Source: an uncultured Exiguobacterium sp.
Lineage (GTDB): Bacteria > Bacillota > Bacilli > Exiguobacteriales > Exiguobacteriaceae
DNA length: 64,000 nucleotides
Direction: 5' to 3'
Assembly (NCBI GenBank): GCA_913775715.1
Contig: CAJYMC010000001.1
Span: 237,526 to 301,525 of the forward strand
Part shown: positions 23,093 through 45,964 of the stretch, one piece after another
How positions within the stretch are numbered: the stretch's first letter is position 1
Layout of the letters: every line of letters begins with the position of its first letter
Translations under genes and position numbers: made by a program
Notes under the pieces: model-generated
What the model was told of the DNA's origin: nothing
Databases searched by the model: none
Seen by the model: the letters and a program-made list of their open reading frames with translations, nothing else

Positions 23093-24370
23093 ATGACACT
23101 GCAAGCAAAACGGAGCGATGCTTTTGCTCGGGACGAGCAAGATGCACTCGCCGCCTATCGTGATGAGTTTTATCTGCAACCGGGTAGTATCTATATGGAC
23201 GGAAACTCGCTCGGTTTATTATCGAAGCGTGCCGAGAAGACATTGCTTGAGTCGCTATCAGACTGGAAAGAACTCGGGATCGATGGCTGGATGAAAGGAC
23301 GTCATCCTTGGTTCGAATTATCGGAACGTCTCGCTGCTCTCAACGCTCCGCTCGTCGGCGCACAAGCGGAAGAAGTCATGGTCACTGGTTCGACGACCGT
23401 CAATCTCCATCAACTCGTGGCGACATTCTTCCAACCATTGGAAGGTCGAGACAAGATTTTAGCGGACGCGCTGACGTTCCCGTCAGACATCTATGCCCTC
23501 CAAAGCCAACTTCGCTTACGCGGACTGGATCCGGAGACACATCTCATCCAAGTACCGAGTCGGGACGGTCGCTTTTTAGAAGAAGACGATATCATCGCCG
23601 CGATGACGGATGATATCGCATTGATTGTCTTGCCAGCGGTACTTTACCGAAGTGGACAAATTCTCGATATGGAGCGTTTGACGAAAGCAGCACACGACCG
23701 TGGCATCCTGATCGGTTTTGATGGTTGCCATTCCGTCGGAGCCGTTCCCCACGCGTTCCATGACTGGGGCGTTGATTTTGCCTACTGGTGTAATTACAAA
23801 CACTTGAACGGCGGTCCTGGAACGGTTGGTGGATTATTCGTCCACGAACGTCATTTCGGAACGTTGCCTGGTCTGACGGGCTGGTTTGGTTCACGCAAGG
23901 ATAAGCAGTTTGACATGGATCACACGATGACACCGGCGGCGCATGCCGGGGCTTTCCAAATCGGGACACCACACGTCTTAAGTCTCGCTCCACAAATCGG
24001 TGCGTTAGAAATGTTTGACGAAGTCGGTATCGAAGCTGTCCGAACGAAGTCCCTTGCCTTGACACAATATATGATGGAACTCGTCGAACAGGAGCTCACA
24101 CCGTACGGTTTTGTCATCGGAAACCCGGTCGACGATAAACGCCGCGGGGCGCACCTCAGCCTCGAGCACCCGGAAGCAGCACGGATCTGTAAAGCACTCA
24201 AGGAAAATCGGATTATCCCCGATTTCCGGGCACCGAACATCGTCCGTCTAGCACCCGTCGCGCTCTACAATACGTTTACCGATGTCTATGACGTCGTCGC
24301 GACACTCAAACGCATCATGAAAGATAAAGAATACGAACGTTTCGCGAATGAACGCGAAGTCGTTGCTTAA
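23093..24370 (+). CDS. kynU: Kynureninase
   Basis: A 425-residue PLP enzyme (aspartate-aminotransferase fold) that cleaves L-kynurenine to anthranilate and L-alanine. [10 protein letters not shown] near residue 35 and the [12 protein letters not shown] segment are family marks. The PLP lysine lies in [13 protein letters not shown] near residue 233, preceded by the FDGCHSVGA aspartate region that binds the pyridine ring. GAGGAGG precedes ATG 23093. It is the first gene of an operon with the permease, kynA and kynB; the kynU stop is 10 bases before the permease start. Confidence 0.96.
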
Positions 24371-24380
24371 GGAGTACATC

Positions 24381-25760
24381 ATGGAACAACCTACTGAACT
24401 ACGGCGTGAACTCAAGACACGCCAATTAACGATGATCGCAATGGGCTGTGCGATCGGAACCGGTCTTTTCCTCGGAAGTGGGCTTGCGATCGGACTTGCC
24501 GGACCGAGTGTTTTAATCAGTTACGCAGTCGGTGCCTTCATCGTCCTACTTTTAATGGGCTGTCTGGCAGAAATGACGGTCGCCCATCCGACATCTGGCT
24601 CGTTCGGTACGATTGCCGAACGATACATTAGTCCATATGCGGGTTTTCTCGTCCGCTATTCGTACTGGATCGCAAACGTTCTCGCGATTGGCGTTGAGGT
24701 CAGTGCGATCGCTATCTATATGAAATACTGGTTCCCGGACGTTCCCGGGGTCGTCTGGATTCTCGTATTCGCTGCCGCGTTGATCTATATCAATGCCACG
24801 ACAGTCAATACGTTCGCGACCTTCGAATACTGGTTCTCAGTCATTAAAATCAGTGCCATCTTGCTATTCATCCTGCTTGGCGCCTACTTGGTCATCGGTA
24901 GTCCAAGTCCTGAGATTGGTCCTCAAAACTTCACAAATGACGGTGGATTCATGCCTTTCGGCTTCTCAGGTCTCTGGATCGCGATCTTCATCTCCCTGTT
25001 CAGCTTCCTCGGAACAGAATTGATTGCCGTCACTGCTGGTGAAGCGAAGGATCCAGATGTTGCTGTACCGAGAGCATTAAAAGCGACAGTCTTCCGTCTC
25101 TCGACGTTTTATGTCGTAACGATTGCTTTGATGTTGATGATCGTCCCATGGCAACAAGCAGGCGGTGTCGATCAAAGTCCGTTCGTCAAAGTAATGGAGA
25201 TGCTATCGATTCCGTATGCGGGCGGCATCATGAACTTCATCATCCTGACGGCAGCATTGTCTGCGATGAACAGTCAGCTGTATGCTTCGACACGGATGAT
25301 GTATTCGTTATCGAAGGCAACGTATGCGCCAAAAGTATTTGGGCGTTTGAATCGAAAAGGTGTACCGCTTTTCGCACTCGCCTTGTCGACACTCGGCATT
25401 TTTCTCGCAGCGATCATTAGCAGTCAATCGAGCGTCTCTTATCCATTCATGATGGGGATTTCGATGTTCGGGGCGATTTTCACATGGTTCATGATTTTTA
25501 TCTCCCATCTGTACTTCCGCAAAGCCTGGGAACGTGAAGGTGGACGGACGTTACCGGTTCGGATGATGGGCTATCCGTATTTGACTGCTCTCGGTGCATT
25601 GTTGTTATTCGCACTCGTCCTAACGACATGGTTCACGGATTTCCAAATCGTCTTGAAGTTTGGTGTCCCGTGGTTAGTGTTCTTGTCGATCGCCTATTTC
25701 TTCTGGAAACGGGCGCATCCGGAACAACCACAGACCGCTGAAAAACGAAAACTGAATTAA
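24381..25760 (+). CDS. Amino acid permease of the kyn operon
   Basis: A 459-residue APC/AAT-family permease with about 12 helices. The signature MIAMGCAIGTGLFLGSG is in helix 1, with GCLAEMTVAHPTSGSF and the FSFLGTELIAVTAGEA segment later. ATG 24381 follows TAAGGAG; the longer frame overlaps kynU. Lying between kynU and kynA with tight spacing, it most likely imports tryptophan or kynurenine, but the sequence alone does not fix the substrate. There is no terminator on either side. Confidence 0.88.
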   Translation: MEQPTELRRELKTRQLTMIAMGCAIGTGLFLGSGLAIGLAGPSVLISYAVGAFIVLLLMGCLAEMTVAHPTSGSFGTIAERYISPYAGFLVRYSYWIANVLAIGVEVSAIAIYMKYWFPDVPGVVWILVFAAALIYINATTVNTFATFEYWFSVIKISAILLFILLGAYLVIGSPSPEIGPQNFTNDGGFMPFGFSGLWIAIFISLFSFLGTELIAVTAGEAKDPDVAVPRALKATVFRLSTFYVVTIALMLMIVPWQQAGGVDQSPFVKVMEMLSIPYAGGIMNFIILTAALSAMNSQLYASTRMMYSLSKATYAPKVFGRLNRKGVPLFALALSTLGIFLAAIISSQSSVSYPFMMGISMFGAIFTWFMIFISHLYFRKAWEREGGRTLPVRMMGYPYLTALGALLLFALVLTTWFTDFQIVLKFGVPWLVFLSIAYFFWKRAHPEQPQTAEKRKLN

Positions 25761-25783
25761 CTTAATAAAGGGGATGAATGGGA

Positions 25784-26623
25784 ATGACAAAGACAGATCC
25801 TACGTCTATTGAAGCATCGATTCAAACGGATTTTAAGAAAGATATGTCCTACGGGGATTATTTGCAACTAGATCCATTGCTTACGAGTCAACATCGCTTA
25901 TCGGGGCATCATGACGAGATGCTGTTCATCATCATTCATCAAACGAGCGAACTATGGATGAAGCTGATCCTGCATGAGATGCGAGCAGCGACGCAAGCGG
26001 TCGCAAACGATGATCTCGAATCGTCGTTTAAGATGCTCGCACGTATCTCAAAGATTCAGCACCAGTTGATTCAGTCGTGGAATGTCTTGTCGACCTTGAC
26101 CCCTGCCGAATATCTGGAATTCCGTGATGCGCTTGGTCACTCATCCGGTTTCCAATCGTATCAAAACCGCCAAATCGAATTCGCGCTCGGTTTTAAGAAT
26201 GAGCAGATGCTAAAAGTGTATGCGCACGACGAAACGCTCTATCCGATGATGCTAGAAGAATTGAAGACACCAAGTATCTACGACGAAACGATCCGGGCGA
26301 TGGCACGCCATGGGCTACCGATCGACCAATCCGTCCTTGAGCGTGATGTCACGCAAGACTGGACGCCAAATGCGAGCGTCGAAGCAGCTTGGGCGAGTGT
26401 CTATCGGGATGTCGATCGGTACTGGGATCTGTATGAACTTGGTGAAAAACTACTCGATATCGGGAGCCAACAACAGATGTGGCGCTTTAACCACATGAGT
26501 ACCGTCGAACGGATCATCGGACAAAAGCCAGGAACGGGCGGTTCTTCTGGCGTCAGTTATCTACGCCGTGTGCTCGACCACCGGTTCTTCCCGGAACTGT
26601 GGTCAGTCCGCACGACATTATGA
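25784..26623 (+). CDS. kynA: Tryptophan 2,3-dioxygenase
   Basis: A 279-residue haem enzyme that opens the indole ring of L-tryptophan to N-formylkynurenine. Family marks are [39 protein letters not shown] (including the distal His region), [21 protein letters not shown], and the C-terminal [29 protein letters not shown] block containing the proximal haem His. ATG 25784 has AAAGGGG ten bases upstream; ATG 25778 is also possible. It is the third gene of the operon, with kynB following. Confidence 0.96.
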
Positions 26624-26636
26624 GGAGGATGAAGCG

Positions 26637-27260
26637 ATGACACGATGGATTGATGTTTCACAACCACTTGATCGCCACGTCACGACGTGGCCGGGGGATA
26701 CACCGTTTGAAGCAACATTGACATGGAATAAGGCAGACACCGGTTCCGTTAACGTGGGAAAGGTAACGATGAGTCTGCATACTGGCACTCATGTCGACGC
26801 GCCGTTTCATTTTGACGATGCCGGACAAAAAATCATCGACCTTGATCCGGATCTCTATATCGGACATGCGCGCGTCATTTACTTACCAGGTCGTACAGAA
26901 ATCACAGCCGCTGATTTAGATGGCTTTGAGCTAAATGACGTCCAGCGCTTGATCATCAAAACGGATGGTTGGATCGACAAATCAACGTTCCCAGAAACGA
27001 TTCCCGTCTTGACGCCAAGTCTTGCTGAACGTCTCGGCGAACTCGGGATTTCGCTGATTGGTCTCGACTTACCAAGCGTCGATGCGATCGATAGCAAGGA
27101 AATGGCAGCCCATCACGCACTGGCGCAGCATGGAGTCCATATCCTTGAAGGACTCGTTCTCGATGCGATCACGCCTGGTGATTACCACCTCAACGCTGTC
27201 CCACTTCCGCTCGTCGACGGCGACGGTAGTCCCGTCCGTGCCTTACTTCGTCCATACTAA
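26637..27260 (+). CDS. kynB: Kynurenine formamidase
   Basis: A 207-residue cyclase-family metal hydrolase that removes formate from N-formylkynurenine. The metal motif LHTGTHVDAPFHF (HxGTHxD with a later His) is near residue 45, and TWPGD is near the start. GAGGAGG is eight bases before ATG 26637, just after the kynA stop. With kynA and kynU this completes tryptophan to anthranilate plus alanine. The 207-residue length is usual for bacterial KynB. Confidence 0.94.
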   Translation: MTRWIDVSQPLDRHVTTWPGDTPFEATLTWNKADTGSVNVGKVTMSLHTGTHVDAPFHFDDAGQKIIDLDPDLYIGHARVIYLPGRTEITAADLDGFELNDVQRLIIKTDGWIDKSTFPETIPVLTPSLAERLGELGISLIGLDLPSVDAIDSKEMAAHHALAQHGVHILEGLVLDAITPGDYHLNAVPLPLVDGDGSPVRALLRPY

Positions 27261-33737: not shown

Positions 33738-33920
33738 GCGCTTTCCTCCTACTCGTTTCGTTGTAGGTCTTTACCCGAAAGCATTCGTCCGTAACGCTCC
33801 GTCTTAGGATGGACGTTCCTTCTCGTATTCATTGCTAAAATAAGTACATCCATTTCTAGGAATATCGCCCTCCTGTAGAGAAGAAGTTCAGCACGGATTT
33901 TCGCAGAAAGGAGCTGTCCG
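33738..33920. other. Divergent intergenic region, no RNA element seen
   Basis: This gap must hold promoters for the peptidase (minus) and the giant membrane protein (plus). On the minus strand GTTACG-N13-GGGTAA near 33770-33800 weakly resembles a sigma-B promoter. Otherwise I see no inverted repeat or riboswitch. Confidence 0.3.
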
Positions 33921-36900
33921 ATGCACTCGTTCCGTCAACACCTCAAGAACTTCATGCATACGTACCGTAAGGACATCCTTGTTCTATCTGGTATGTTTGT
34001 ATTCATCCTAATCTATAGCTTCCCGTTGTTTCGTTCCGGTATGGTGACGTTCAGCGATCTATCCTTTGGACTGTCCTCCCATCGCTATTTAGAAGAAATC
34101 TACGGTGCCTGGAACAACCGCTGGAGTACGACGACGCTTCTGAATGTCGCACGATTGCTCTACATCCTACCGTTTTATCTACTCAGTCTATTGTTTGGCT
34201 CATCCGGTCCTGTCTTGATCAAGTCATTCATCATCGGACTGTTAACGATCTCTGCTTTATCGATGTTTGCTTTTACGAAACGGCTCCATTCCGTTTATGT
34301 TTCGAAGCACTTTTCTTATCTCTCACTGATTGCTTTCGCGATCGCCGCGTTGTTTTATGCCTTGAACCCGTGGGTGATCACGCGAATTCAACATATCTAT
34401 TTACTATGTGGCTATTCCGTCTTTCCTTACGCTTTGATGTTGTTCTTCAATATCTTCGACCCGAAGTTTCGTGAACAACTTGATCCCGGTTTTCATTTGT
34501 CTGATCGGTTGAGCCGACGGACATGGATTGATATCACCGGACTATCGATCGTCTTCGCCTTCATGGCGGCCGGGATCCATTATTTCTTCTTCTCGCTGAT
34601 CTACATGGGCATCATGGTCGGACTCATTTTCCTAAAGACAAGTTGGACGCGTCGCAAAGAACGGATTTGGTCACCGTTACTGTGGTTTTACGTCCGAGCG
34701 ACCTGTGCGTTTGGTCTCGTTTTTCTACTATTCAATGGATATTGGTTCTTGATGTACGTCGGCTCGATTCTGACTGGCTCACAAGCTTCACAACACAATA
34801 TCAATGTGTCTGATACATTGATGTTGTTCAGTCGCCACTCGAGCTGGACGAACGTTTTATTTTTAACGAGCTACTGGTGGCCGATGTTTGATTTGACGAC
34901 GTTACCGCTGACGTTTTGGATTGGTGGTGTGATCACGCTTTTACTCATTTTACTAGGAGCCATCGTCGCGTATCGGCAACCGATCCATCTGTTCTTTAGT
35001 CTGCTTGCGATTCCGCTGATCGTCTTTGCGACCGGTACCCATGAACAAGTTGCCGATGCATTTGTTCTGTTCGTGACGAAGACACCGTTGATTGGTGCGA
35101 TGTTCCGCGATCCGAATAAGCTAGTTGGTCTCTTAATGGTCAGTTACAGTTTGTTGCTCGCCGTTGGATTAAATGCTGTCTTCACCCGTGCATCTCGGAC
35201 GATTCCACTGAAGTTGTACCGGGTCGTCTCAATCGTCGGAACACTAATCGTCATCGCCTGCTTTTTCCTCCCTTACCGGACTGTCTATATGGAAGGTTTT
35301 TATCATCCGGTCAAGATGCCTAAGGAATACACGGCTATCCAAGAAGAAGTCAATGGGAAGTGGTTGCAATTCCCGATTGCGGACGAGATGACGCAACCAA
35401 GTACCGGCATCGCGACTCCACGCTGGAATCAAAATCCACGAAAAGGTGGCGAAATCAAGGCTACGGGTGACGTACAAGTCTATACGTCGGCACACGACAC
35501 CGTCTTTCATCATGAAGGAGCATCACCGACGATTGGTTACATGATGACGTTCATGCAATATCTACTCGACACCGGTCGCTCGGAACAAGCCGGACAGATC
35601 GCAAAAGCGTTCGGATTGAAGCAATTCGCCTACCGCGATGAATACACGGGGATGAAGGATCGACAAGACTTCAATCTAAAGGTTCTGCAGGAACAACGTG
35701 ATCTAGTGCAGACGAAACAAGTCGGCTTGTTCACCTTATTCGACTTGATCGCACCGCTTGATACACGAACCGTTCCACAACTGATTTTGACCCCCTATGG
35801 GCTCGAACGGTCGATTAGTTACCCGACACTGGATGGATACAATCTCGGGCGTCAATCGATTTTGTATGCGACACAAGCACATCAGGACAGCCTATCCTGG
35901 ATGAAAAAGGGTGATCTCGTCGAGATGATCGAGGAAAACGACCTTGTCCTCAGTCAGGTATCGGACGAATACTACTGGAAACCGTTCGATGCGATTGATT
36001 CAGCCAATGCCTTCCTGAACTGGGGTAAGACGTTTCTCGCCAACAATGACTGGCGCTGGTATTTACGGACGCAAGGCATGACGAATCCGTCGTTTGATCT
36101 CGACTTTGGAGACGGAATTGGTCTCTCGTTTGCTTCTGCCCAAATTGACGCGCCGGTCTACAAATTAGACGGATTAAAGGCGAAGCAGGTCGCCTCCTTT
36201 AATTCCATGCTTGAGGATGAGACGTTCTTCAAAGCCGATAACCCAGACATCGTCGACTTATCTCCGAATCCGATGTCAAAAGATAATAACCTGCCTGTCC
36301 TTCATGCGGAAGTCGCGGAAGGTGATCCGAAATACATCTGGCAAGTCGCGAAATCCGGTAAGCTACCGGCACGACCGAATAACGCCTACCGCTTTGATAT
36401 CACAGCGAGCGGTCGCGGTGTCGACCGGCTCCATGTCAAGGTCCGGTTCTTTGATGAGAAGGATCGCGAGCTGAATCAAACGTATGTCGTCGCTCCGCAT
36501 GATTCCGGTGATGTCGATGCGATTCACTTACAAGGTGAATATGTCACACCACGAAACGCAAAAACGATGCGGATTGATCTACTCAGCTTCCAACGTCCTG
36601 AGCGGAAAACGTATTGGTGGGTCCATGATATTAAAATCTTTAGCTATGAGGATTATATGATTCCGAACACGTTTACGATGACGAAAGACTTGCCTGCCGG
36701 TCGTTACGCTGGTTTTGCCCGCGTGCTGCTGAACCAAAAAGGCGGGCAACTCGATTTGACCTTCAATAAACGAGGCGTCACGATTCCAACTCGACAACGA
36801 TCCGGTGCTAAGCTCGCTTGGGTTCCGCTCGGTTCGTTCACGACGCCGAGCGGTCCTGCAACGCTCAGTGTGACGAACACGGAAGGCTTCAATGCCATCC

Positions 36901-38366
36901 AAAATATCGTTCTGATTCCGGAAGAAAAGCTGACTACTTTACGAAAACGCGTCGATGATACACTCGCTTTTACGAAGACCTTGATGGTACTCGAGGCAGA
37001 GACCGGATTCGATTACACCGGTCACTTGCAGTCGGAGCGAAACTATCCCGGACTAAGCTTCGGGAAAGGAATCGCTGCGCAACGTGGACGTTTACAGCGT
37101 TCGATTGATATTCGGGAAGCGACCGACTATCAACTCCAGTTGATGTTGACTCCACCGCCAGGCAATGATGGTCGGATCACTGTCAAAATCCAAGACGGAA
37201 AGCAGGTCGTCTTCGAACGCACTTTGTCTCGTGCAGATATTCTAAATGGTCAAAAACACCAACAGCAGATCGGTAATCAGACGGTGACGTATGATCCGCT
37301 ACACTTAGCGTTTCCGTACCGGATGACCGAGTTGAGCGATGTTTACCAAACGTTATACGATGTGAAGTTATCCAATATCCCACTTGCGAAGGGACGCTAT
37401 CAGTTAGAACTATCCTATGCGAGTAAGGTGCCATCACTCGTCGATTGGAAGGATCTGCACAAGTTCGACCCGAACGAGATCGTCACCGATAAAGCCCTTG
37501 CTGCTCCAGAAGCAGCAGCAAATTGTGCGACGTGCGTCTCGATCACGGACGATATGTTCGATGCGAGTGAGACCGAAAACGGCTATACGATTGATTATGA
37601 GCCGACCTGCTCGTGTGACTGGTATATTTATGCCTCGCAAAAAATGAAGGTGAAACCGTATCACGAATATTTAATTCAGTTTGACGCAGTCAGCAAGAAT
37701 GTCCGTCAACGGCACCTCAAAGTGTATTACCTGGATAAAGATGATCGTGTCATTGGTACGGATTTCATCAATGAAGTCGAAGAAAAGAAAAAGAAGCAGT
37801 GGAACCATTATGAACAAATCGTCATTCCACCGAAGAAGACCGTCCGGATGCAGTTGCATATCTGGACGCGCGGAAATGAGAAAAAGGCTGGGCAATTGCG
37901 TCTGAAGAATTTAGAAGTGCTACCGTACGATCAACTGATTCTAGTCGATCAACTCGTTCTCTCCGAGCAAAGCGGGACGCTGTTCGCAACAGAACCTGCG
38001 CGTGCGCTTGACGTCGATGCCTCACAGATGGGACGGGATATAAACAGTGATGCGCCACTCGGTCGCTTTACGGTCAATGATTCTCCGACGCCGTTATTTA
38101 AGCTCCAGACAGATCAGGAAACGATGCGTGGTGATACGGCATTAAACGGCGTTAGTCAGTTGTATCATTCGAACGAAAAGACGGCACATGTGACCGTTGT
38201 GTTGCGTCCGATTTATTACGCCGGACTGACCATCCTCGTCTTAGCGCTCCCACTTAGTATCTTGTTGATTTATTTCATGACAAGCAATCGTGGTCTAGCT
38301 ATACGACAACGCCTATCGTCCGTGTTCAAGCAACGTCTTCCTCGTCTGAAACGAAACCAGAAATAG
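33921..38366 (+). CDS. Giant GT-C-like membrane protein of the glycan locus
   Basis: A 1481-residue membrane protein. Residues 1-450 contain about 11-12 helices with long loops, as in GT-C-fold or YfhO/AftD-like lipid-sugar glycosyltransferases; the segment MFRDPNKLVGLLMVSYSLLLAVGLN near residue 396 is a typical late helix-loop motif. Residues 460-1430 form a large external region with several beta-rich, carbohydrate-binding-like segments and an unusual CATC (1202-1205) and CSC (1230-1232) cluster. A last helix (about 1433-1455) and a basic tail return it to the cytoplasm. The family call is by topology, not by a proven catalytic motif. It opens the glycan locus. Confidence 0.7.
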   Translation: MHSFRQHLKNFMHTYRKDILVLSGMFVFILIYSFPLFRSGMVTFSDLSFGLSSHRYLEEIYGAWNNRWSTTTLLNVARLLYILPFYLLSLLFGSSGPVLIKSFIIGLLTISALSMFAFTKRLHSVYVSKHFSYLSLIAFAIAALFYALNPWVITRIQHIYLLCGYSVFPYALMLFFNIFDPKFREQLDPGFHLSDRLSRRTWIDITGLSIVFAFMAAGIHYFFFSLIYMGIMVGLIFLKTSWTRRKERIWSPLLWFYVRATCAFGLVFLLFNGYWFLMYVGSILTGSQASQHNINVSDTLMLFSRHSSWTNVLFLTSYWWPMFDLTTLPLTFWIGGVITLLLILLGAIVAYRQPIHLFFSLLAIPLIVFATGTHEQVADAFVLFVTKTPLIGAMFRDPNKLVGLLMVSYSLLLAVGLNAVFTRASRTIPLKLYRVVSIVGTLIVIACFFLPYRTVYMEGFYHPVKMPKEYTAIQEEVNGKWLQFPIADEMTQPSTGIATPRWNQNPRKGGEIKATGDVQVYTSAHDTVFHHEGASPTIGYMMTFMQYLLDTGRSEQAGQIAKAFGLKQFAYRDEYTGMKDRQDFNLKVLQEQRDLVQTKQVGLFTLFDLIAPLDTRTVPQLILTPYGLERSISYPTLDGYNLGRQSILYATQAHQDSLSWMKKGDLVEMIEENDLVLSQVSDEYYWKPFDAIDSANAFLNWGKTFLANNDWRWYLRTQGMTNPSFDLDFGDGIGLSFASAQIDAPVYKLDGLKAKQVASFNSMLEDETFFKADNPDIVDLSPNPMSKDNNLPVLHAEVAEGDPKYIWQVAKSGKLPARPNNAYRFDITASGRGVDRLHVKVRFFDEKDRELNQTYVVAPHDSGDVDAIHLQGEYVTPRNAKTMRIDLLSFQRPERKTYWWVHDIKIFSYEDYMIPNTFTMTKDLPAGRYAGFARVLLNQKGGQLDLTFNKRGVTIPTRQRSGAKLAWVPLGSFTTPSGPATLSVTNTEGFNAIQNIVLIPEEKLTTLRKRVDDTLAFTKTLMVLEAETGFDYTGHLQSERNYPGLSFGKGIAAQRGRLQRSIDIREATDYQLQLMLTPPPGNDGRITVKIQDGKQVVFERTLSRADILNGQKHQQQIGNQTVTYDPLHLAFPYRMTELSDVYQTLYDVKLSNIPLAKGRYQLELSYASKVPSLVDWKDLHKFDPNEIVTDKALAAPEAAANCATCVSITDDMFDASETENGYTIDYEPTCSCDWYIYASQKMKVKPYHEYLIQFDAVSKNVRQRHLKVYYLDKDDRVIGTDFINEVEEKKKKQWNHYEQIVIPPKKTVRMQLHIWTRGNEKKAGQLRLKNLEVLPYDQLILVDQLVLSEQSGTLFATEPARALDVDASQMGRDINSDAPLGRFTVNDSPTPLFKLQTDQETMRGDTALNGVSQLYHSNEKTAHVTVVLRPIYYAGLTILVLALPLSILLIYFMTSNRGLAIRQRLSSVFKQRLPRLKRNQK

Positions 38367-38381
38367 TCTATCTAAAAAGCT

Positions 38382-38421
38382 AAAAGGACAATGGAGACCC
38401 CTCGGTCCCCATTGTCCTTTT
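38382..38421. terminator. Bidirectional terminator
   Basis: AAAAGGACAATGGAGACC / GGTCCCCATTGTCCTTTT, an 18-base near-perfect stem with loop CCTC, between the convergent giant gene and the GT2 gene; it touches the GT2 stop codon. Confidence 0.9.
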
Positions 38422-39593
38422 CATTTGACCGGTACTTCGTCTTTCCGGTGGCGCTGATACAAGCTGACCATCGTCTTCAAGAACGCAACGGAATCCTTGA
38501 CGAGATTGACATGCGATCCTTCGCGCTCGATGCAGGTCACCGGTTGTTGGTAAACCCGTAGGCGTTCTTTTTTCGCTGCATACATCAGCTCTAAATCAAT
38601 TGCGAGACCACTCTCGACGTGTAGATAAGGCAACAGACGATGAACGACCCGTCGGTTGATGATCTTCAGACCGGTCTGTGAATCGGTCACCCCTTTCGGT
38701 AAGAAGAACCGTGTCAGATTTCGTTTTCCAAAGCTCATGAAACGCCGGACGGCTCCCCGGTCTTCGATCGTCAAATCCTTCGTCCCGACGACGATGTCAT
38801 AATATCCTTCCTGGGCGATCGTCAGCAACCGCGCGATGTCTTCAATTCGAAACGAGTTATCCGCATCGACGAAGACATAATAATCACTCGAGACGTTTTT
38901 CATTCCCTCGATGAACAGACCGGCCTTTCGTGTATTTCGTTCGACCTGGTGTACTTCTAGATATCCGACCGTGAATAACGTATCGGTCGCTTCCATGACG
39001 ATCGAGCGATACTCCTGTAAGAGTGCTTTCGATCGATCTGATGAAGCATCATCAAAGAAATTGATCGAAGCGTGGATGTAGTCTTCGCTGATGAAGGTCG
39101 CAAGCGACTCTAAAAAATCTTTTACATAATTAAAACGTTTCTCTTCGTTAAATATTGGCAATATAAAGGCTATAGTATCCTTTAAAATGGGATATTCAGG
39201 ATGGATGATATGCTGGATTTCAGCAAACAATTCATTCGGATAGGCTGGGCGATAAGAAAACAAGCGAAGCATACCGTCTCCTTGAACCGTGTGATACGGA
39301 AAATCTCCCTTTAAACGAATGGCTTCTTTAATCAACAGGATTTTGGAACGTGGACGTACAGCTCGAATCTGATTGGCGATCGCAAGCTCCTCTTCACGTG
39401 TCTTATAGTCGACGACATACAACAGAATCTCGTGTTCTTCTGCTTCTTGAATTTCAGTGCTAGCGATTTGTTTAAACGAGGCAGGACATCTGCCAGGTTG
39501 TGTGTAAAACAAAACCGGATAATAAGAAATCAAAGATTCGTATGGAATATGCCGCGAGTGATCGGTGAAAACAGCAATATGTCCTTGACTCAT
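38421..39593 (-). CDS. Receiver-like domain fused to a DPM1-like GT2
   Basis: A 390-residue soluble protein. Residues 140-380 are a GT-A family-2 glycosyltransferase of the polyprenyl-phosphomannose/glucose synthase type: FILPIFNEE at 143-151, FDDASSD at 180-186, the metal-binding DAD at 243-245, DSQTGLKI at 304-311, with no C-terminal helices. Residues 1-135 look like a divergent response-regulator receiver: Asp11 after strand 1, Asp62 in LLYVVDY at the phospho-acceptor place, and Arg115-Pro116 where Lys-Pro is usual. ATG 39593 is nine bases after GGAAAGG. It probably makes lipid-P-mannose from GDP-mannose supplied by manC. Confidence 0.75.
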   Translation of the reverse strand: MSQGHIAVFTDHSRHIPYESLISYYPVLFYTQPGRCPASFKQIASTEIQEAEEHEILLYVVDYKTREEELAIANQIRAVRPRSKILLIKEAIRLKGDFPYHTVQGDGMLRLFSYRPAYPNELFAEIQHIIHPEYPILKDTIAFILPIFNEEKRFNYVKDFLESLATFISEDYIHASINFFDDASSDRSKALLQEYRSIVMEATDTLFTVGYLEVHQVERNTRKAGLFIEGMKNVSSDYYVFVDADNSFRIEDIARLLTIAQEGYYDIVVGTKDLTIEDRGAVRRFMSFGKRNLTRFFLPKGVTDSQTGLKIINRRVVHRLLPYLHVESGLAIDLELMYAAKKERLRVYQQPVTCIEREGSHVNLVKDSVAFLKTMVSLYQRHRKDEVPVK

Positions 39594-39642
39594 AAGTTTC
39601 ATCCTTTCCGTAAAACAGCTCTGACTGATGGGAGGTGGCTCC

Positions 39643-40821
39643 ATGACAAGTTTCATTCAGCGACATGCCGTCCTGTTGATTTTTCCGATTCTCGATGTAG
39701 CGTTGAATCTCGTGAACTATGCCTATCATTTACTATTAGCCCGTGAGCTTTCTAGTGCTGTCTACGGATTACTGAATGCTTATCTAGCTTTCTTAGGTCT
39801 TCTACTCATCATCGGTGGCGCTTTACAATGGACCGTGACACGTGACTACAGTCAACAGAAGACAAATGATTATCAAAAGCTCCGTTTTCGTATACTGGTG
39901 GTCACAGGATGCTTTTTACTTATTTTACTTTATGCATTACCTTATTTCCTGCCTTTTGCCAAAATAAACCTACTAATTGTTTATTTCATCATCGTGTTTC
40001 ATATCCTTCTCTCTTTTCGCCGTGGTGTCTTACAAGCGACTGAACGCTTCTATGCCCTAAACCTCTCGTATTACATCGAATCCGTCGTCAAAGTCCTAGC
40101 CACATGGTTTTTGATTCAGCAAACGAACATCAGTTATGCACTGTTGTTCATCTTGGCCGGCATGATTGCGTCCTACCTATTAAGCCTGATACAAGTCACG
40201 TTCCCGGTTAGTAGCGGGCAAATCCAGGCGAATGGACTCGTCCATATGATCCATACACAGATCGTCATGACGCTCTTCTTTACACTTGATAGTCTCCTCG
40301 TCACCCGTTATTTTCCGCAGTTCGCAGGAGATTATTCCGTTGCCTTACGCTTCGGTCAACTCCTGTTATTCGTCGCGTTATCACTCGCCCAATTGTTGTT
40401 GCCGCGCTTAAGTCAAAAAAGTCAGGATGAAGCCTTTCTTCTTTGGGAGCGGCGCTTTTACCGTATCTTGTTAGGTGGACTCGTTCTTGCTGTTTTGGTG
40501 TACTGGACGATCGTTCCTTACCTGATTCCGCTTCTATTCGGGAGCGGCTACGACATGGCAACTCATTACATCAAATATATGGTTTTCGTTTATGTCGGCA
40601 TCACATTGATTCAATACGAGGCACTCGTCCAGTTTTCCCTACATCGAACTAGTTACTTGAAAGGCTACTGGCTGATTCTGATTCTGTTCGTCCTTGTTTT
40701 GACGACATTTCACTCGACCGTTGAGATTTGGTTGCTTGCACAAGCAGGTGTCTTTTTACTTGGCGCCCTGATCTTACGTTTCACCTTACCTCGACACCCC
40801 GATCCCGTGAAGGAGGCATAA
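39643..40821 (+). CDS. Polysaccharide flippase, Wzx/MOP-like
   Basis: A 392-residue protein with about 12 hydrophobic helices over its whole length. The start LLIFPILDVALNLVNYAYHLLLAREL, then YGLLNAYLAFLGLLLIIGGALQWTVTRD, is the helix 1-2 pattern of the MOP/Wzx oligosaccharide-lipid flippases. GGGAGGTGG precedes ATG 39643; the frame extends five residues upstream into that site. It shares only 49 bases with the divergent GT2 gene and is followed by GT4 and GT2 genes with almost no gap, so it is likely the exporter of the lipid-linked glycan they build. Confidence 0.8.
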   Translation: MTSFIQRHAVLLIFPILDVALNLVNYAYHLLLARELSSAVYGLLNAYLAFLGLLLIIGGALQWTVTRDYSQQKTNDYQKLRFRILVVTGCFLLILLYALPYFLPFAKINLLIVYFIIVFHILLSFRRGVLQATERFYALNLSYYIESVVKVLATWFLIQQTNISYALLFILAGMIASYLLSLIQVTFPVSSGQIQANGLVHMIHTQIVMTLFFTLDSLLVTRYFPQFAGDYSVALRFGQLLLFVALSLAQLLLPRLSQKSQDEAFLLWERRFYRILLGGLVLAVLVYWTIVPYLIPLLFGSGYDMATHYIKYMVFVYVGITLIQYEALVQFSLHRTSYLKGYWLILILFVLVLTTFHSTVEIWLLAQAGVFLLGALILRFTLPRHPDPVKEA

Positions 40822-40822
40822 C

Positions 40823-41962
40823 ATGAAACCCCATCTACTTTTTTTATCTTGGCGCGATATCAAACACCCGAAAGCAGGTGGCGCAGAAGTGTTCACCCAC
40901 GAGATGCTCCGACGTGTTAGTGACGACTATGAAATTACCCATTTTTCTCCCGCATTCGAAGGCGGACATGATGTCGAGTACTTGGACGGAATCACTTATA
41001 TTCGGAGAGGTACTGCACTTTCTGTCATTCCGCTCGCCTTTTCTTATTATCAGTCGCATGCTGCGACGATTGATTTAGTCGTCGACCAGATGAACACGCA
41101 TCACTTTTTCACACCCTTGTATGTTCCATTAGCGAAACGTGCCCTCTTCATTCATCAACTGACACGTGAAATCTGGCAAATCAATGTTCGTCCTCCATTT
41201 TCATACGTCGGCGAATGGACGGAGACGCCACGTCTGCAGCTTTACCGGACCGGTCGCGCGTTGACGGTCAGTCAATCCACAGCAGACGACCTGCTTGCTG
41301 TTGGTTTCTCCAAGGACGACGTAACGATTCTACCAGAAGGTCTCTCCTTTATCCCATGGAACGAGGAGGACTGGAAGCCAAAAGAAACACATCCAACTTT
41401 TTTATACGCTGGACGGATGTCTGCCTATAAAGGAATCAATGATGCACTCCAAGCTTTCGTCATCGTCAAACGGGAGTACCCTGACGCTCGTTTCTGGGTC
41501 ATTGGAAAGAAAGACGAGGCGTATATCACCGAGCACCTTCATCCAATCGTTCCGGAAGAGATGCGTGAGGCCATCACCTATTTCGGATTCGTCAGTGAGG
41601 AAGAAAAGCTCGAACGGATGAGTCGCGCGACGGCGCTCCTGTTTCCCTCCAAACGAGAAGGTTGGGGTCTGACGGTCAGTGAAGCGGCAGCTGTCGGTAC
41701 ACCGACGATCGTCTATGACGCCCCTGGACTGCGTGACGCCGTCCAGTACGGTATGACTGGTTACATGGCCAAAAGTCAGACGCCGGGCGCACTCGCTGCC
41801 GAGATGCGTGCCTGCTTACGTGACCCGGAAGAATACGAAATGATTCAAGCAGCCGGTCATCGTTTCGTTCAGACCTTACACTGGGATCACACAGGTCAGG
41901 CGTTTCGAAACTGGTTGCAACGCGAATTAATACCCGTCGCACTAAAGGAGGATTTTTCATGA
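40823..41962 (+). CDS. Glycosyltransferase family 4
   Basis: A 379-residue GT-B enzyme. The N-terminal domain begins LLFLSWRDIKHPKAGGAEVFTHEML, with the acceptor-side GGAE loop. The C-terminal domain has FLYAGRMSAYKGINDALQAF near 195 and the nucleotide-sugar site FPSKREGWGLTVSEAAAVGTPTI near 275 (ExxxGxGxxxxE-like). It probably adds a hexose, possibly mannose, to a lipid-linked acceptor at the inner face. It starts one base after the flippase stop and overlaps the next GT2 by four bases. Confidence 0.88.
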   Translation: MKPHLLFLSWRDIKHPKAGGAEVFTHEMLRRVSDDYEITHFSPAFEGGHDVEYLDGITYIRRGTALSVIPLAFSYYQSHAATIDLVVDQMNTHHFFTPLYVPLAKRALFIHQLTREIWQINVRPPFSYVGEWTETPRLQLYRTGRALTVSQSTADDLLAVGFSKDDVTILPEGLSFIPWNEEDWKPKETHPTFLYAGRMSAYKGINDALQAFVIVKREYPDARFWVIGKKDEAYITEHLHPIVPEEMREAITYFGFVSEEEKLERMSRATALLFPSKREGWGLTVSEAAAVGTPTIVYDAPGLRDAVQYGMTGYMAKSQTPGALAAEMRACLRDPEEYEMIQAAGHRFVQTLHWDHTGQAFRNWLQRELIPVALKEDFS

Positions 41963-42825
41963 TTGGAATCGCTATGTCCACATACGAAAATGAAGCAATT
42001 ATCACGGAAACGATCCGCTCCCTTCAGGCACAACAGGTTTCTTTCCTTTGTGTCATCGCGGATGATGGTTCGACCGATTCGACCGTCGCGACGATGCGTC
42101 AATTGACCGCAAATGATACGCGATTCGAAGTGCTCGCGCTACCGCACGGTGAACGAGGTATTGCCCGCAAGACTGCGATTGATCGCTTAAAGCAAGACGA
42201 TGTTGAATACCTCTACATCATTGATTCCGATATGGTACTTGAAGAACAGTTATTAAAAAGCTGCCTCTTATACCTTGAGGCACATTTAGAGGTCGGGGCA
42301 CTCGTCATTCCCGAACGCGCGTACAGTGATTTTGATAATTACTTCAGTCAAGTGAAGGTCTTTGAGCGTAACCTGTTCAACGTCCCAACGGATCAACTCG
42401 ACACGCATACGATGGAAGCCGCGCGCTTCTGGCGGCTCGAGGCGTACGTCGCCTCGGGCGAGATTGATCCGACGCAAATCAGTTTCGAAGAGACGCAGCC
42501 GACGATCCGTTATTTAGAACAAGGCGGAATCATTCGCCGTGCGACGTTCACTTACGTACACCACAACGAAAAGCAGGTCGAATTAAATGACCTGCTTCGA
42601 AAGAAACGCTATTACTTTGATGTCATGCCCGCGACGCTCGACGCGGAACAGGGTGGCTTCATGAAAGCCTTACGACGTTGGTATTTCTTCCGTCCCGTTC
42701 TCTATCATCAGGCTAATTTAAAAAAATATAGTCGTCATCCACTACTGACCGCTGGTGTCATCTACATGTACTTGCGTCTTAGCTTCATTGGTGTAGAATC
42801 CCTCTTCTTCAAACGGGTTTCGTAA
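41959..42825 (+). CDS. Glycosyltransferase family 2
   Basis: A 288-residue GT-A enzyme. GIAMSTYENEAIITETIRSL and ADDGSTDST give the nucleotide site, and IIDSDMVLEEQ is the DxD motif near residue 78. The rest is alpha-helical and ends with a hydrophobic amphipathic stretch. The ATG overlaps the GT4 stop (ATGA). Its 3' end overlaps the 3' end of the minus-strand receiver gene by 17 bases. The sugar is unknown; it completes the glycan-building trio with the flippase and GT4. Confidence 0.88.
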   Translation: MIGIAMSTYENEAIITETIRSLQAQQVSFLCVIADDGSTDSTVATMRQLTANDTRFEVLALPHGERGIARKTAIDRLKQDDVEYLYIIDSDMVLEEQLLKSCLLYLEAHLEVGALVIPERAYSDFDNYFSQVKVFERNLFNVPTDQLDTHTMEAARFWRLEAYVASGEIDPTQISFEETQPTIRYLEQGGIIRRATFTYVHHNEKQVELNDLLRKKRYYFDVMPATLDAEQGGFMKALRRWYFFRPVLYHQANLKKYSRHPLLTAGVIYMYLRLSFIGVESLFFKRVS

Positions 42826-43420
42826 GACTGCCAGTAAGTGACTGATAGAGGATGTACGTTCCGAACTGCGTCGGGAATTCGAATCGATGAATACCGTTTT
42901 GGTCTTCTAGAATCTGTTCATGATGATCAATCGTCAGGGCACGTTGACTGATGATTGATCCATCTTCGTAAAAGAGACAATACGGACGATTTGAATTGAT
43001 TAACACATCAGTAAAATGTTGTCCCAGATTCCGTTTACGTTGTTTCGTTTCCACGACCTCATCTCCGATGCGCGTCATGATACTAAGAACTCGATCGTCA
43101 ATTTTCAATGGTTTCGTCATCATCCGACTGACGTTTCCTGCGTTCACAGCTGCCAGCAACGTATGGACTTGCATATAATCCGTCAAGACGATTTGTTTCG
43201 TTAACGGCGCCTGTTGTTTAGCAGCACGCAACAGCTCGACACCATCCATTTCTGGAAGTCGAAGTTCTGTCAGCAAGACATCAACGTCGGAGTTGCTGAG
43301 TTGTTCCAACGCCTCTTCTCCTGATCCTGCTTCCTGTACGTCTTGTCCCGCTGCCAGTAGTTTACGACGTAAAATCCGTCGTGTCGGTTCATGTGAGTCA
43401 ACTAATAGATAAAGTGCCAT
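42809..43420 (-). CDS. Receiver-domain protein with Glu at the phospho-site
   Basis: A 203-residue protein. Residues 1-120 are a response-regulator receiver: LLVDSHEP (Asp8) for the acidic pocket, LLTELRLPEMDG where the phospho-acceptor Asp is replaced by Glu52, T80 at the switch position and Lys103 in TKP. Residues 125-203 have no recognised output domain and no helix-turn-helix. Glu at this site often mimics phosphorylation, so it may be locked active and act through protein contacts. GGAGGCG precedes ATG 43420. It sits inside the glycan locus, convergent with the GT2 and divergent from manC. Confidence 0.8.
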   Translation of the reverse strand: MALYLLVDSHEPTRRILRRKLLAAGQDVQEAGSGEEALEQLSNSDVDVLLTELRLPEMDGVELLRAAKQQAPLTKQIVLTDYMQVHTLLAAVNAGNVSRMMTKPLKIDDRVLSIMTRIGDEVVETKQRKRNLGQHFTDVLINSNRPYCLFYEDGSIISQRALTIDHHEQILEDQNGIHRFEFPTQFGTYILYQSLTGSLTKPV

Positions 43421-43460
43421 ATGCTATCGCCTCCGTTTTAAAAAGAAAGGATGGTCGTCA

Positions 43461-44795
43461 ATGTATATTCTTTTACTATCAGGTGGATCCGGAAAACGGC
43501 TTTGGCCGCTCTCGAACGATTTGAACTCGAAACAGTTCTTGAAAATCCTAGAAGATCGCGATGGCAATAAACAATCGATGATGGAACGCGTCTTTCAGCA
43601 GCTTCAGGAAGTCGGTCTGGACGACCGGACTGTCATTACGACGACGAGTTCACAAGTCGATGCAATCGAAAATCAGCTTGGATTCCGAACGTCCATCATT
43701 CAAGAACCGTCACGTCGCGATACGTTCCCTGCGATCATGCTTGCGACAAGTTATCTCGCAGAACGAATTGATTTAGAAGAGACGATCATCATCATGCCGG
43801 TCGATCCTTACGTTGAACTATCGTTCTTTGAACGCTTCGAACAACTGGACCAAGCCGTCCAAGAACATCCGGATGCGCTTCATTTAATGGGGGTCGAACC
43901 GTTGCATCCGACATCAAAATATGGCTATATCATTCCGCAGACTTCCGACAATATGTCCATCGTCGATCGCTTCCAAGAGAAACCGACCGTTGAAGTCGCG
44001 AGTGACTTAATCGAACAAGGTGCACTATGGAACTGTGGTGTCTTTGCCTGTCGCCTTGACTTCTTAATGCAGTGTCTAGAAGAACAAGCTGTGCCGACGA
44101 CATTCGAGGCGCTCCGTTCGAACTACGAGGCACTAGAAAAGACATCATTTGATTATGCGGTTGTTGAAAAGACCGATTCTTTATTCGTTCATCGGTATGA
44201 TGGTTACTGGAAAGATCTCGGAACATGGAATACATTAACGGAGGAGATGCCGCATCCGCTTCATGGAAACGCCCGGATGCTCCATTCGAAAAATACGCAT
44301 ATCGTCAATGAATTACAGGTTCCGGTCCTTGGAATCGGACTTGATAACTTAATCGTGTCGGTGAGTCCAGATGGTGTCCTCGTTGCGTCCAAAGATGAGA
44401 CACCTGCTTTAAAGGAATATTTGACGGATGATACTTTGCCACCACAATTTGAGTGGAAACGCTGGGGTTATGCGACGATTTTACATCAACAGCAACTAGA
44501 GGACGGGCGTTATGCCGTGACCCGACGGTTGCATATCAAGGCACATCAGCAAATCAGTCATCATTATCATGCGCATACCGACTCGACATGGAGTATCTTA
44601 CAAGGTCGCGCTGAGGCACTGATCGATGGTCAGTCACAGCAGCTCGGACCAACTTCTGTCGTGCATATCCCACAAGGTGTTCCGCATACGCTGACCACAC
44701 TAGAAGATCTGATCATGATCGAAATTAAATATTCGATCGATTGGACGGAACAAGATAACTATCCGCTCCCGACCTCCATCCGGTCCAAACCATGA
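43461..44795 (+). CDS. manC: Mannose-1-phosphate guanylyltransferase with cupin domain
   Basis: A 444-residue type II enzyme. The nucleotidyltransferase domain starts LLLSGGSGKRLWPLS (GxGxRLWP pattern), with FQEKP near residue 173 and GYWKDLGTW near 253. The C-terminal ~110 residues form a cupin, HYHAHTDSTWSILQGRAEALI, as in bifunctional ManC/AlgA proteins whose cupin may carry phosphomannose isomerase activity. It makes GDP-mannose from GTP and mannose-1-phosphate, the donor for the neighbouring glycosyltransferases. AAAGGATGG precedes ATG 43461. Confidence 0.92.
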   Translation: MYILLLSGGSGKRLWPLSNDLNSKQFLKILEDRDGNKQSMMERVFQQLQEVGLDDRTVITTTSSQVDAIENQLGFRTSIIQEPSRRDTFPAIMLATSYLAERIDLEETIIIMPVDPYVELSFFERFEQLDQAVQEHPDALHLMGVEPLHPTSKYGYIIPQTSDNMSIVDRFQEKPTVEVASDLIEQGALWNCGVFACRLDFLMQCLEEQAVPTTFEALRSNYEALEKTSFDYAVVEKTDSLFVHRYDGYWKDLGTWNTLTEEMPHPLHGNARMLHSKNTHIVNELQVPVLGIGLDNLIVSVSPDGVLVASKDETPALKEYLTDDTLPPQFEWKRWGYATILHQQQLEDGRYAVTRRLHIKAHQQISHHYHAHTDSTWSILQGRAEALIDGQSQQLGPTSVVHIPQGVPHTLTTLEDLIMIEIKYSIDWTEQDNYPLPTSIRSKP

Positions 44796-44800
44796 TGTTA

Positions 44801-44831
44801 GAAAGGGCACCTCTTATCGGTGCCCTTTCGT
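44801..44831. terminator. Hairpin between manC and manA
   Basis: GAAAGGGCAC / GTGCCCTTTC, perfect 10 bp with a 9-base loop, between convergent genes. There is no clear T run, so efficiency is uncertain. Confidence 0.7.
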
Positions 44832-44836
44832 CTGCT

Positions 44837-45787
44837 CTAGTCTAAAAACACTTCACTTGTCACGAATGTGACGGATCCCGCTATTTCGTAATCTCCCGCT
44901 CGACGCGGTACAAAGAATTGGTTTCCTTTCTGTAAAGGAATCACGCGACTGCCTTGCCGCGCTTCTCCTTTACCATCGATGACAGTCAACAAACGAAAGA
45001 CTGGATGATCATGTAATGTATATCGACCGATCACTTCATGACGGATCACCGTAAAGGAAGGTACTTGAAGCAACTTCGTCATGACACCCCCTTCCTTGAT
45101 GATCGTCTCTGGTTGGTTCGTCCACGGCTCATCTGGAATCGTCGTGACAGCGATTGCCTTCTCAACGTGCAATTCTCTCGGTTTCCCGTCATCTCCTAAT
45201 CTGTCGTAATCATATAGTCGATACGTCCGGTCGCTCATCTGTTGAATCTCAAGAAGAACGATGCCTGGTCCTAGAGCATGAATCGTACCACTCGGAATGT
45301 AATAAAATTCGCCAGGTTTTACTTTTTGATGCCGAAGAGACGTCTCCCAGTCCTTTTCTTGCGCGCACCGGAACAAGGCATCTCGTGATTGTAGATTGTG
45401 ACCAAGAATGATTTCTGCCTCTGGTGCAGCCTCTAAGATATACCAGCACTCATTCTTACCGAATGGTTCTCCTTCTAGCCGTCGTGCCTCCTCATCATTC
45501 GGATGGACTTGTACGGATAAGTACGCGGACGAGTCCAGAAATTTTACATGAAGCGGAAAGGCGTCAAGCAGATAATCACCGAACAGTTCCGTCCGTTTCG
45601 TTTGCCATAATTCATCTAGCGTCTTCCCCTGATCAGGTCCATCTAAGAAATGCGTCCGTCCACTCGCATGAGCGGATGCTGTCCAACATTCTCCAATTTG
45701 TCCTTCTGGTAACTCAAACTGAAACAACGCCTCTAACCGTCGACCGCCCCAAATTCGTTCTTTGAAAATTGGTTGAATGGCATACAT
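44837..45787 (-). CDS. manA: Mannose-6-phosphate isomerase, class I
   Basis: A 316-residue cupin metalloenzyme close in length to Bacillus ManA. It interconverts fructose-6-phosphate and mannose-6-phosphate. The zinc site appears in QVHPNDEEA near residue 97, with ECWYIL and SGTIHALGPGIVLLEIQQ near 170. ATG 45787 has GGGAG upstream. Convergent with manC, it completes the GDP-mannose route except for a phosphomannomutase, which is not in the window. Confidence 0.93.
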   Translation of the reverse strand: MYAIQPIFKERIWGGRRLEALFQFELPEGQIGECWTASAHASGRTHFLDGPDQGKTLDELWQTKRTELFGDYLLDAFPLHVKFLDSSAYLSVQVHPNDEEARRLEGEPFGKNECWYILEAAPEAEIILGHNLQSRDALFRCAQEKDWETSLRHQKVKPGEFYYIPSGTIHALGPGIVLLEIQQMSDRTYRLYDYDRLGDDGKPRELHVEKAIAVTTIPDEPWTNQPETIIKEGGVMTKLLQVPSFTVIRHEVIGRYTLHDHPVFRLLTVIDGKGEARQGSRVIPLQKGNQFFVPRRAGDYEIAGSVTFVTSEVFLD

Positions 45788-45903
45788 ATCGACGCGGACT
45801 CCCGATAGACTAGGAGCGACGCTTCACCTCCATCTATACGTTTGGTTACCTCTTTATACCCATTTTTATGTCTATATTATCCAAATAAAACAGATTGAAT
45901 CAT
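45788..45903 (-). other. manA upstream region, nothing recognised
   Basis: About 115 bases between manA and the peroxiredoxin terminator. It must contain the manA promoter but shows no clear operator, hairpin or riboswitch. Confidence 0.3.
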
Positions 45904-45943
45904 AAAAAAACCAACTCTTAGTGCATCACTAGTAGTTGGTTTT
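45904..45943 (-). terminator. Terminator of the peroxiredoxin gene
   Basis: AAAACCAACTCTTAGTG / CACTAGTAGTTGGTTTT-type stem with loop CAT; T7 on the minus strand. Confidence 0.88.
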
Positions 45944-45964
45944 CGTACAGTTTGCTAGCTCTTT

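Follow-up and report, generated by a model that had tools for sequence, protein, structure and literature searches.

The 64,000-nucleotide stretch analysed here (positions 237,526 to 301,525 on the forward strand of contig CAJYMC010000001.1, assembly GCA_913775715.1) is referred to below as the window. It carries at 33921-45787 a locus of eight genes which, on balance, probably encodes a single multi-component machine for transmembrane glycosylation, with a surface sugar, probably mannose-containing, as its likely product; in its ancestral form the machine would have been controlled by a phosphorelay. This reading is based on the gene set, its co-occurrence in other genomes, the folds of its proteins, the relay genes of relatives, and a split between aspartate and glutamate at the acceptor position of the receiver protein. 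The new observation is that four of the seven long loci of relatives outside Exiguobacterium encode their own hybrid kinase, Hpt protein and receiver. An earlier prediction, made from the letters of the window (hereafter the original prediction), had described eight genes in alternating orientations. The list of open reading frames confirmed all eight at the coordinates given there. They are listed below with three features lying inside them.

33921-38366, plus strand: giant, a 1481-residue membrane protein (open reading frame, no Pfam family)
34050-34157, plus strand: conserved loop after the first transmembrane segment, giant residues 44-79 (F44, D46, F49, N65, S69, N75 and R78 invariant in 16 rows)
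36177-36656, plus strand: CBM22-like beta-sandwich, giant residues 753-912, a candidate acceptor-binding domain from a structure match
38421-39656, minus strand (probable gene 38421-39593): GT2rec, a DPM1-like GT2 (PF00535, 2.4e-16)
39204-39593, minus strand: receiver-like N-terminal (beta-alpha)5 domain of GT2rec in the predicted model, with Asp62 (39408-39410) at the acceptor position
39628-40821, plus strand: flip, the flippase, with about 10-11 hydrophobic segments (Polysacc_synt-like, MATE/Wzx class)
40823-41962, plus strand: GT4 glycosyltransferase (PF00534, 1.4e-30)
41959-42825, plus strand: GT2b glycosyltransferase (PF00535, 2.2e-17)
42809-43420, minus strand: recv, a 203-residue receiver protein (Response_reg PF00072, 1.7e-17, its sole Pfam family)
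43461-44795, plus strand: manC-like mannose-1-phosphate guanylyltransferase with cupin (PF00483, PF01050; TIGR01479 at 3.6e-53, below the cut-off)
44837-45787, minus strand: manA, class I mannose-6-phosphate isomerase (TIGR00218, above the cut-off)

The reading frame of GT2rec as listed starts at 39656 and overlaps the start of the flippase gene. A methionine at 39593, which leaves a gap of 34 bases, is probably the true start, because in loci L016-L019 the matches set in only at residue 22 of that longer frame. Since the gene orientations alternate, several transcription units are likely. The flippase is a many-spanning protein matched by PF01943 at E 1e-4, below the cut-off, and GT2b has a weak C-terminal hydrophobic segment at residues 261-279. 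Among the Pfam and NCBIfam matches of the eight proteins (for GT4 and recv, the best 25 NCBIfam matches each), no Wzy, chain-length, tyrosine-kinase or epimerase family was named, in agreement with the original prediction, and no phosphoglycosyltransferase either. Wzy, a chain-length regulator and a phosphoglycosyltransferase, by which a Wzx/Wzy exopolysaccharide or capsule locus would be recognised, are thus not seen among the eight proteins.

The distribution of the genes was determined in genome samples. The giant was found in 14 of 41 genomes of Exiguobacterium and its kin, namely in 12 of 19 from the genus of the window (one of them a fragment, in genome G002), 2 of 6 from the second genus of the family, and none of 16 from the rest of the class. 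GT2rec was not detected at E 1e-20 in any of the 12 genomes of the Exiguobacterium family without an intact giant. All ten named Exiguobacterium loci have GT2rec beside the giant, together with flippase, GT4, GT2b, recv and manC, and nine of them have manA. Farther off the giant is rare: it was found in 1 of 391 genomes of the class of C. puniceum, 3 of 98 of the phylum of Propionigenium (Fusobacteriota), 2 of 198 of the order of a Peptostreptococcaceae genome, and 1 of 74 and 1 of 188 in further samples. These counts include the seed genomes, the samples of 391 and 198 overlap (G049 and G385, for example, are in both), and the genome search scores only a few candidates per genome. In these two Clostridia samples, a search for GT2rec at E 1e-50 detected it in exactly the genomes that carry the giant, 1 of 391 and 2 of 198. 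A scan by exact peptide patterns, which can miss giants, gave eight far giant-bearing genomes, and 6 of these have GT2rec.

Seven loci outside Exiguobacterium have long flanks (L024, L025, L026, L028, L032, L048/L049 and L050/L051), and in six of them, L032 being the exception, giant, GT2rec, flippase, GT4, GT2b and recv occur together. In G661 (L050/L051) the row reads manC, flip, GT4, GT2b, manA, GT2rec, Hpt, recv, a sensor-like protein and giant. In a Margulisbacteria genome the genes are spread over two contigs, L030 with flip, GT4-GT2b and giant, and L053 with GT2rec and recv. In L030, GT4 and GT2b are fused into one 684-residue protein, and in L032 flippase and giant form one protein of 1800 residues, in both cases with no internal stops. 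The GT4 of the window is 46-53% identical to the copies in far relatives. Among the five core proteins, pairwise identities correlate with r 0.50-0.87 when pairs within Exiguobacterium are excluded, a comparison that has no unrelated gene as control. The gene set therefore behaves as one unit that recurs rarely in distantly related bacteria, and the co-occurrence, whose absence would by the original prediction have undone its single-system reading, was seen across Exiguobacterium, Clostridia and Fusobacteriota.

These data bear on the possibility that the locus is two separate systems in one place, a GDP-mannose/DPM1 branch next to a Wzx-type branch for polysaccharide export that has nothing to do with it. 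The alternating orientation with its likely several transcription units would fit such an arrangement, as would a lone GT4 homologue that persists at the site in three system-free genomes. However, both halves stand together in loci of Exiguobacterium, Clostridia and Fusobacteriota, genomes of the searched samples have either both giant and GT2rec or neither (G047 and G048, with the giant only, are exceptions), and a flippase-giant fusion exists. We regard two separate systems as very improbable. The two-branch system of the original prediction, in which a lipid-linked glycan is flipped and then decorated by the giant, was not demonstrated: no initiating phosphoglycosyltransferase was named among the eight proteins, and the fusion fits a single path equally well.

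The giant, of 1,481 residues, is predicted from its transmembrane segments and its model to consist of a GT-C fold, a large outside part and one C-terminal transmembrane segment. The window is Exiguobacterium-like: its giant and the one from E. indicum HHS 31 share 98% identity. A Pfam search with nine members gave no family better than E 0.055, and none of those listed at E 10 is a GT-C family. A profile search of the PDB gave no match, and in NCBIfam the window giant matched MmpA only, with 27.5 bits against a cut-off of 210. The predicted structure of residues 1-1150 resembles the GT-C transferases AftD and STT3, so the fold, whose lack the original prediction had named in advance as grounds for giving up its reading, is present in the model. 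The top structural match by Z was AftD (6w98), aligned over residues 17-999 of the model, with STT3 only 2 lower. The architecture of AftD, a GT-C core followed by carbohydrate-binding module (CBM) domains, is also seen in the model, with the CBM22-like domain matched over residues 753-909. Judged by this model, the GT-C fold gains a new sequence family in the giant. In the conserved loop, the invariant Asp46 is a candidate catalytic acid/base, as suggested by the alignment.

The likeness to STT3 raises the possibility that the giant works as an oligosaccharide transferase or ligase. In that case one lipid-linked oligosaccharide would be built by GT2b, GT4 and GT2rec and exported by the flippase, and a protein or wall polymer would receive it en bloc from the giant. 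STT3 has the motif WWDxG. No WWD occurs in the window giant, though SYWWPMFD and YWWVHD are present. Two points besides the missing motif stand against this proposal. AftD ranks first by Z, although its lead over STT3 is only 2 and its alignment runs over several domains, and the Pfam and NCBIfam matches of the eight proteins name no phosphoglycosyltransferase, which would be expected to start a pyrophosphate-linked chain. En bloc transfer seems rather unlikely to us.

GT2rec has a GT-A catalytic domain at residues 137-386 of 390 and no transmembrane segment; DPM1 likewise has none of its own. The catalytic domain matches DPMS, ArnC and GtrB by fold and profile, and VIA-align ranked DPMS from Pyrococcus (5mlz) as the best match of the model. 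On the strength of the modelled fold, GT2rec is a probable polyprenyl-phosphate sugar synthase, perhaps for mannose. It shares with DPMS, DPM1 and ArnC/GtrB the catalytic fold and probably the type of reaction, and differs from them in the extra N-terminal (beta-alpha)5 domain. In hhalign this domain matched recv with 86.7% (E 4.3e-6, 65 columns), while decoys reached at most 0.43%. In a profile search of the PDB its best natural proteins were response regulators, at E 0.019 and weaker; designed TIM barrels outranked them, but without a significant single stretch. The acceptor position is Asp in 19 of 20 copies and Glu in one, and the remaining receiver motif residues are not conserved. Among the best 50 structure matches of the whole model there were no receiver chains, the rows being filled by the GT2 domain, so that this negative carries no weight for the N-terminal domain. 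The profile evidence is suggestive, and the domain is possibly a strongly diverged receiver. The original prediction had spoken of built-in receiver domains in the plural: the 203-residue protein was recognised as one, and the domain of GT2rec went unseen by Pfam and has only the weaker profile matches. L032, which has no recv, encodes a DPM1-like GT2 of 326 residues; its match covers only GT2rec residues 202-405 and its GT2 domain begins at residue 53, so that little or nothing of the N-terminal domain is present. In L026, GT2rec and recv are duplicated as two adjacent pairs.

The protein recv consists of a stand-alone receiver and a tail of about 80 residues, and it is the only one of the eight with a recognised receiver. 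No DNA-binding or other output domain was recognised by Pfam in recv, and in G661 the protein is a bare receiver of 134 residues. Because of this, control by contact appears more likely than control by DNA binding. The acceptor position of the window copy is Glu52 (codon 43265-43267). This residue is Glu in all 11 Exiguobacterium copies and Asp in all 10 others, which include two each from L026 and L053.

In the case of the long loci outside Exiguobacterium, recv is present in six of seven, a hybrid kinase (HisKA-HATPase-REC) in five (L024, L025, L028, L048, L051) and a small Hpt protein also in five (L024, L025, L026, L028, L050; the L025 protein falls just short of the Pfam cut-off). The kinase, Hpt and recv are present together in L024, L025, L028 and G661. 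These are the loci with a complete phosphorelay and an Asp receiver, which the window locus does not have. The acceptor Asp is present in all five aligned kinase receivers, and the kinases vary in type among loci (PAS, HAMP, GAF). GT2rec, hybrid kinase, Hpt and recv also stand together on a Thermotogales contig (L052), and the giant lies on a different contig. The kinases and Hpt proteins of the relatives were compared by BLAST with 11 Exiguobacterium loci, that of the window (28001-50000, E 1e-3) and the ten named ones, and neither was found there; the sole match, in L023, was its own recv. Two Hpt matches elsewhere in the genome of the window (G000) were considered as relay partners and set aside, as neither showed a sign of a link to the locus. 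One lies in a 669-residue open frame, probably CheA, and the other stands alone beside a cheV-like gene (L060), the names being assigned by eye. Regulation through receiver domains, as originally predicted, is thus supported by four of seven relatives' loci, whereas in the window recv has Glu and no kinase or Hpt was found.

Three neighbours of these genes were observed in relatives. A conserved protein of 440-441 residues, perhaps an outer-membrane barrel, lies beside recv in the three Fusobacteriota loci (L024:7431-8756, L025:7421-8743, L048:722-2047), and the copies of L024 and L048 have no Pfam match. Five non-Exiguobacterium loci have a further membrane-protein gene immediately upstream of the giant. 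Its product has a putative sensor domain on the outside and could be a relay sensor or a partner of the giant; no Pfam match was found for the L024, L028 and L050 copies. Its coordinates are as follows.

L024:8767-9984
L025:8756-9982
L026:8783-9973
L028:8902-10002
L050:14636-15682

In two Fusobacteriota loci, an NMT1-like substrate-binding gene directly precedes the hybrid kinase gene (L024:15617-16513; L048:3166-4059, identified by BLAST), and its product is a candidate for the signal input of the relay.

From these data we infer the sugar, the order of reactions, the acceptor, and the direction and target of control as follows. ManA and ManC would make GDP-mannose, GT2rec would load mannose onto polyprenyl phosphate, and GT4 and GT2b would add or supply further sugars. 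The flippase would turn the lipid-linked sugar outward, and the giant, holding a surface acceptor with its CBM-like domains, would transfer the sugar to it. The hybrid kinase and Hpt of several Clostridia and Fusobacteriota would feed the stand-alone recv. This protein would most likely work by direct contact, and its likeliest target is the receiver-like N-terminal domain of GT2rec. With no relay genes at the locus and Glu in place of Asp in recv, Exiguobacterium probably has a switch that is locked or otherwise driven.

A more specific and tentative proposal, which we hold with less confidence than the glycosylation machine as such, is that the phosphorelay gates the polyprenyl-phosphate mannose synthase. 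A signal would pass from the kinase through Hpt to recv, which would dock on or phosphorylate the receiver-like domain of GT2rec; in Exiguobacterium, the relay would have been lost from the locus and the change from Asp to Glu would have fixed the switch in one state. If this is true, glycan output would answer a signal within seconds, with no need for transcription. Exiguobacterium and Clostridia would offer a natural pair for comparison, possibly locked against switchable.

It is also possible, though doubtful, that the glycan machine is the same and that recv and the kinases are ordinary two-component neighbours regulating transcription or motility, not the enzymes. The differing kinase types, the failure to find kinase or Hpt at any of the 11 Exiguobacterium loci, and a GT2rec domain that Pfam does not recognise as a receiver are in line with this explanation. 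It accounts less well for a recv without recognised DNA-binding domain, reduced to the bare receiver in G661, for the duplicated GT2rec-recv pair of L026, and for the retention of recv by Exiguobacterium, whose loci lack the relay genes.

Several observations weigh against a phosphorelay-controlled, mannose-based machine. L026 lacks the kinase of the relay, L048/G440 its Hpt (at E 0.01) and L032 every part of it, and the relay may control transcription or another target. Pfam found Response_reg in none of 14 GT2rec members, and the N-terminal domain compared by profile with the kinase receivers of relatives reached 0.7%, which is no match. The model of the giant is moderate (pLDDT 68), and its AftD match has a root-mean-square deviation of 17.6 over several domains. 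G047 and G048 carry the giant and gave no GT2rec match, so GT2rec is not indispensable. As to the sugar, ArnC, which uses another one, ranked above DPMS for GT2rec by Foldseek and by sequence profile. Moreover, among the seven long loci manC was present in only three (L024, L028, L050; not L025, L026, L032, L048) and manA in one (L050). The mannose basis of the original prediction therefore keeps the support of manC and manA in the window and of the VIA-align ranking, and is weakened by the ArnC ranks and the far loci.

Three-component glycosylation is well described in the accessible text of PMC8035078 and PMC11127046, with CsbB/GtcA/YfhO, GacK and GacL of S. pyogenes, and the GT136 ribofuranose system as examples. 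Those systems consist of a polyprenyl-phosphate sugar synthase, a flippase and a GT-C transferase. The window encodes, by fold and profile, a probable GT-A polyprenyl-phosphate sugar enzyme and, by its modelled fold, a GT-C transferase, together with a putative flippase. According to the same text, some of these systems use a Wzx- or MATE-type flippase and some GT-C proteins carry a CBM. The locus differs in its giant of about 1,480 residues, a family of its own, in two extra glycosyltransferases, and in manC/manA in the window. The relatives differ also in their locus-encoded phosphorelay, since the text available from both papers describes the known systems without a dedicated one; a relay-bearing version would make direct switching of lipid-carrier sugar flow testable. 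Like AftD, a mycobacterial arabinofuranosyltransferase, the giant combines GT-C with outside carbohydrate-binding domains. Unlike AftD, it has no sequence match in Pfam or the PDB profile search, occurs in other hosts, and stands in a gene context that suggests mannose rather than arabinose.

A receiver joined to a GT2-type glycosyltransferase has a parallel in the archaeal fusions of Methanobacteria (MTH_548), which in the accessible part of PMC5847659 are BcsA-like enzymes (PF13641) from three genera of one family. GT2rec, in contrast, would be a divergent receiver on a DPM1-like enzyme. The syp locus of Vibrio fischeri, according to the excerpts available, is an 18-gene polysaccharide locus in which kinases act via response regulators and SypE controls the protein SypA. 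Control of a polysaccharide locus by kinases and response regulators is what the relatives' relay loci suggest as well; syp is nevertheless a different locus, and those excerpts mention no receiver-glycosyltransferase or giant GT-C. The Hmr phosphorelay of Caulobacter was rejected as a precedent: the available text of PMC11481889 links it to cyclic di-GMP, and it is therefore not the same system. PMC7117936 treats a Lactobacillus johnsonii glucan together with a bactoprenol glycosyltransferase and a flippase. Searches of open-access literature on receivers or phosphorelays with glycosyltransferases, and on Exiguobacterium with mannose, gave no description of the gene set.

The site between the genes for a Zn-peptidase and a GTPase (window 33738-45964) was compared in seven genomes of the same genus without the system (L064-L070). 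In G003, G016 and G018 it holds a lone GT4 homologue, 56-58% identical. G004, G010 and G017 have another gene (514 residues) and a GT4-like gene (37-39%), with a chemoreceptor in G004, and in G008 nothing lies between the flanking genes. A decayed copy in G002 (L054) retains GT4, GT2b, manC and manA; its giant is reduced to about 293 residues, GT2rec is gone, and flippase and recv are shortened at one end. The site thus resembles a polymorphic surface-antigen locus.

A manC match in G016 was dismissed as a remnant of the system, as it lies in an ordinary capsule-like cluster with gmd/fcl-like genes (named by eye). A role in anti-phage defence was also rejected: GT4 matches PF20706 (GT4-conflict), yet none of the eight proteins matches PADLOC at E 1e-3. 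For a mobile element, no plasmid match was found, and two stretches of viral contigs fit the search pattern, neither of which encodes a relative. Elsewhere in the window, positions 23093-27260 hold genes for a kynureninase, an amino-acid permease and a cyclase-family protein, with one unscanned open reading frame between them, which looks like an ordinary tryptophan-degradation cluster.

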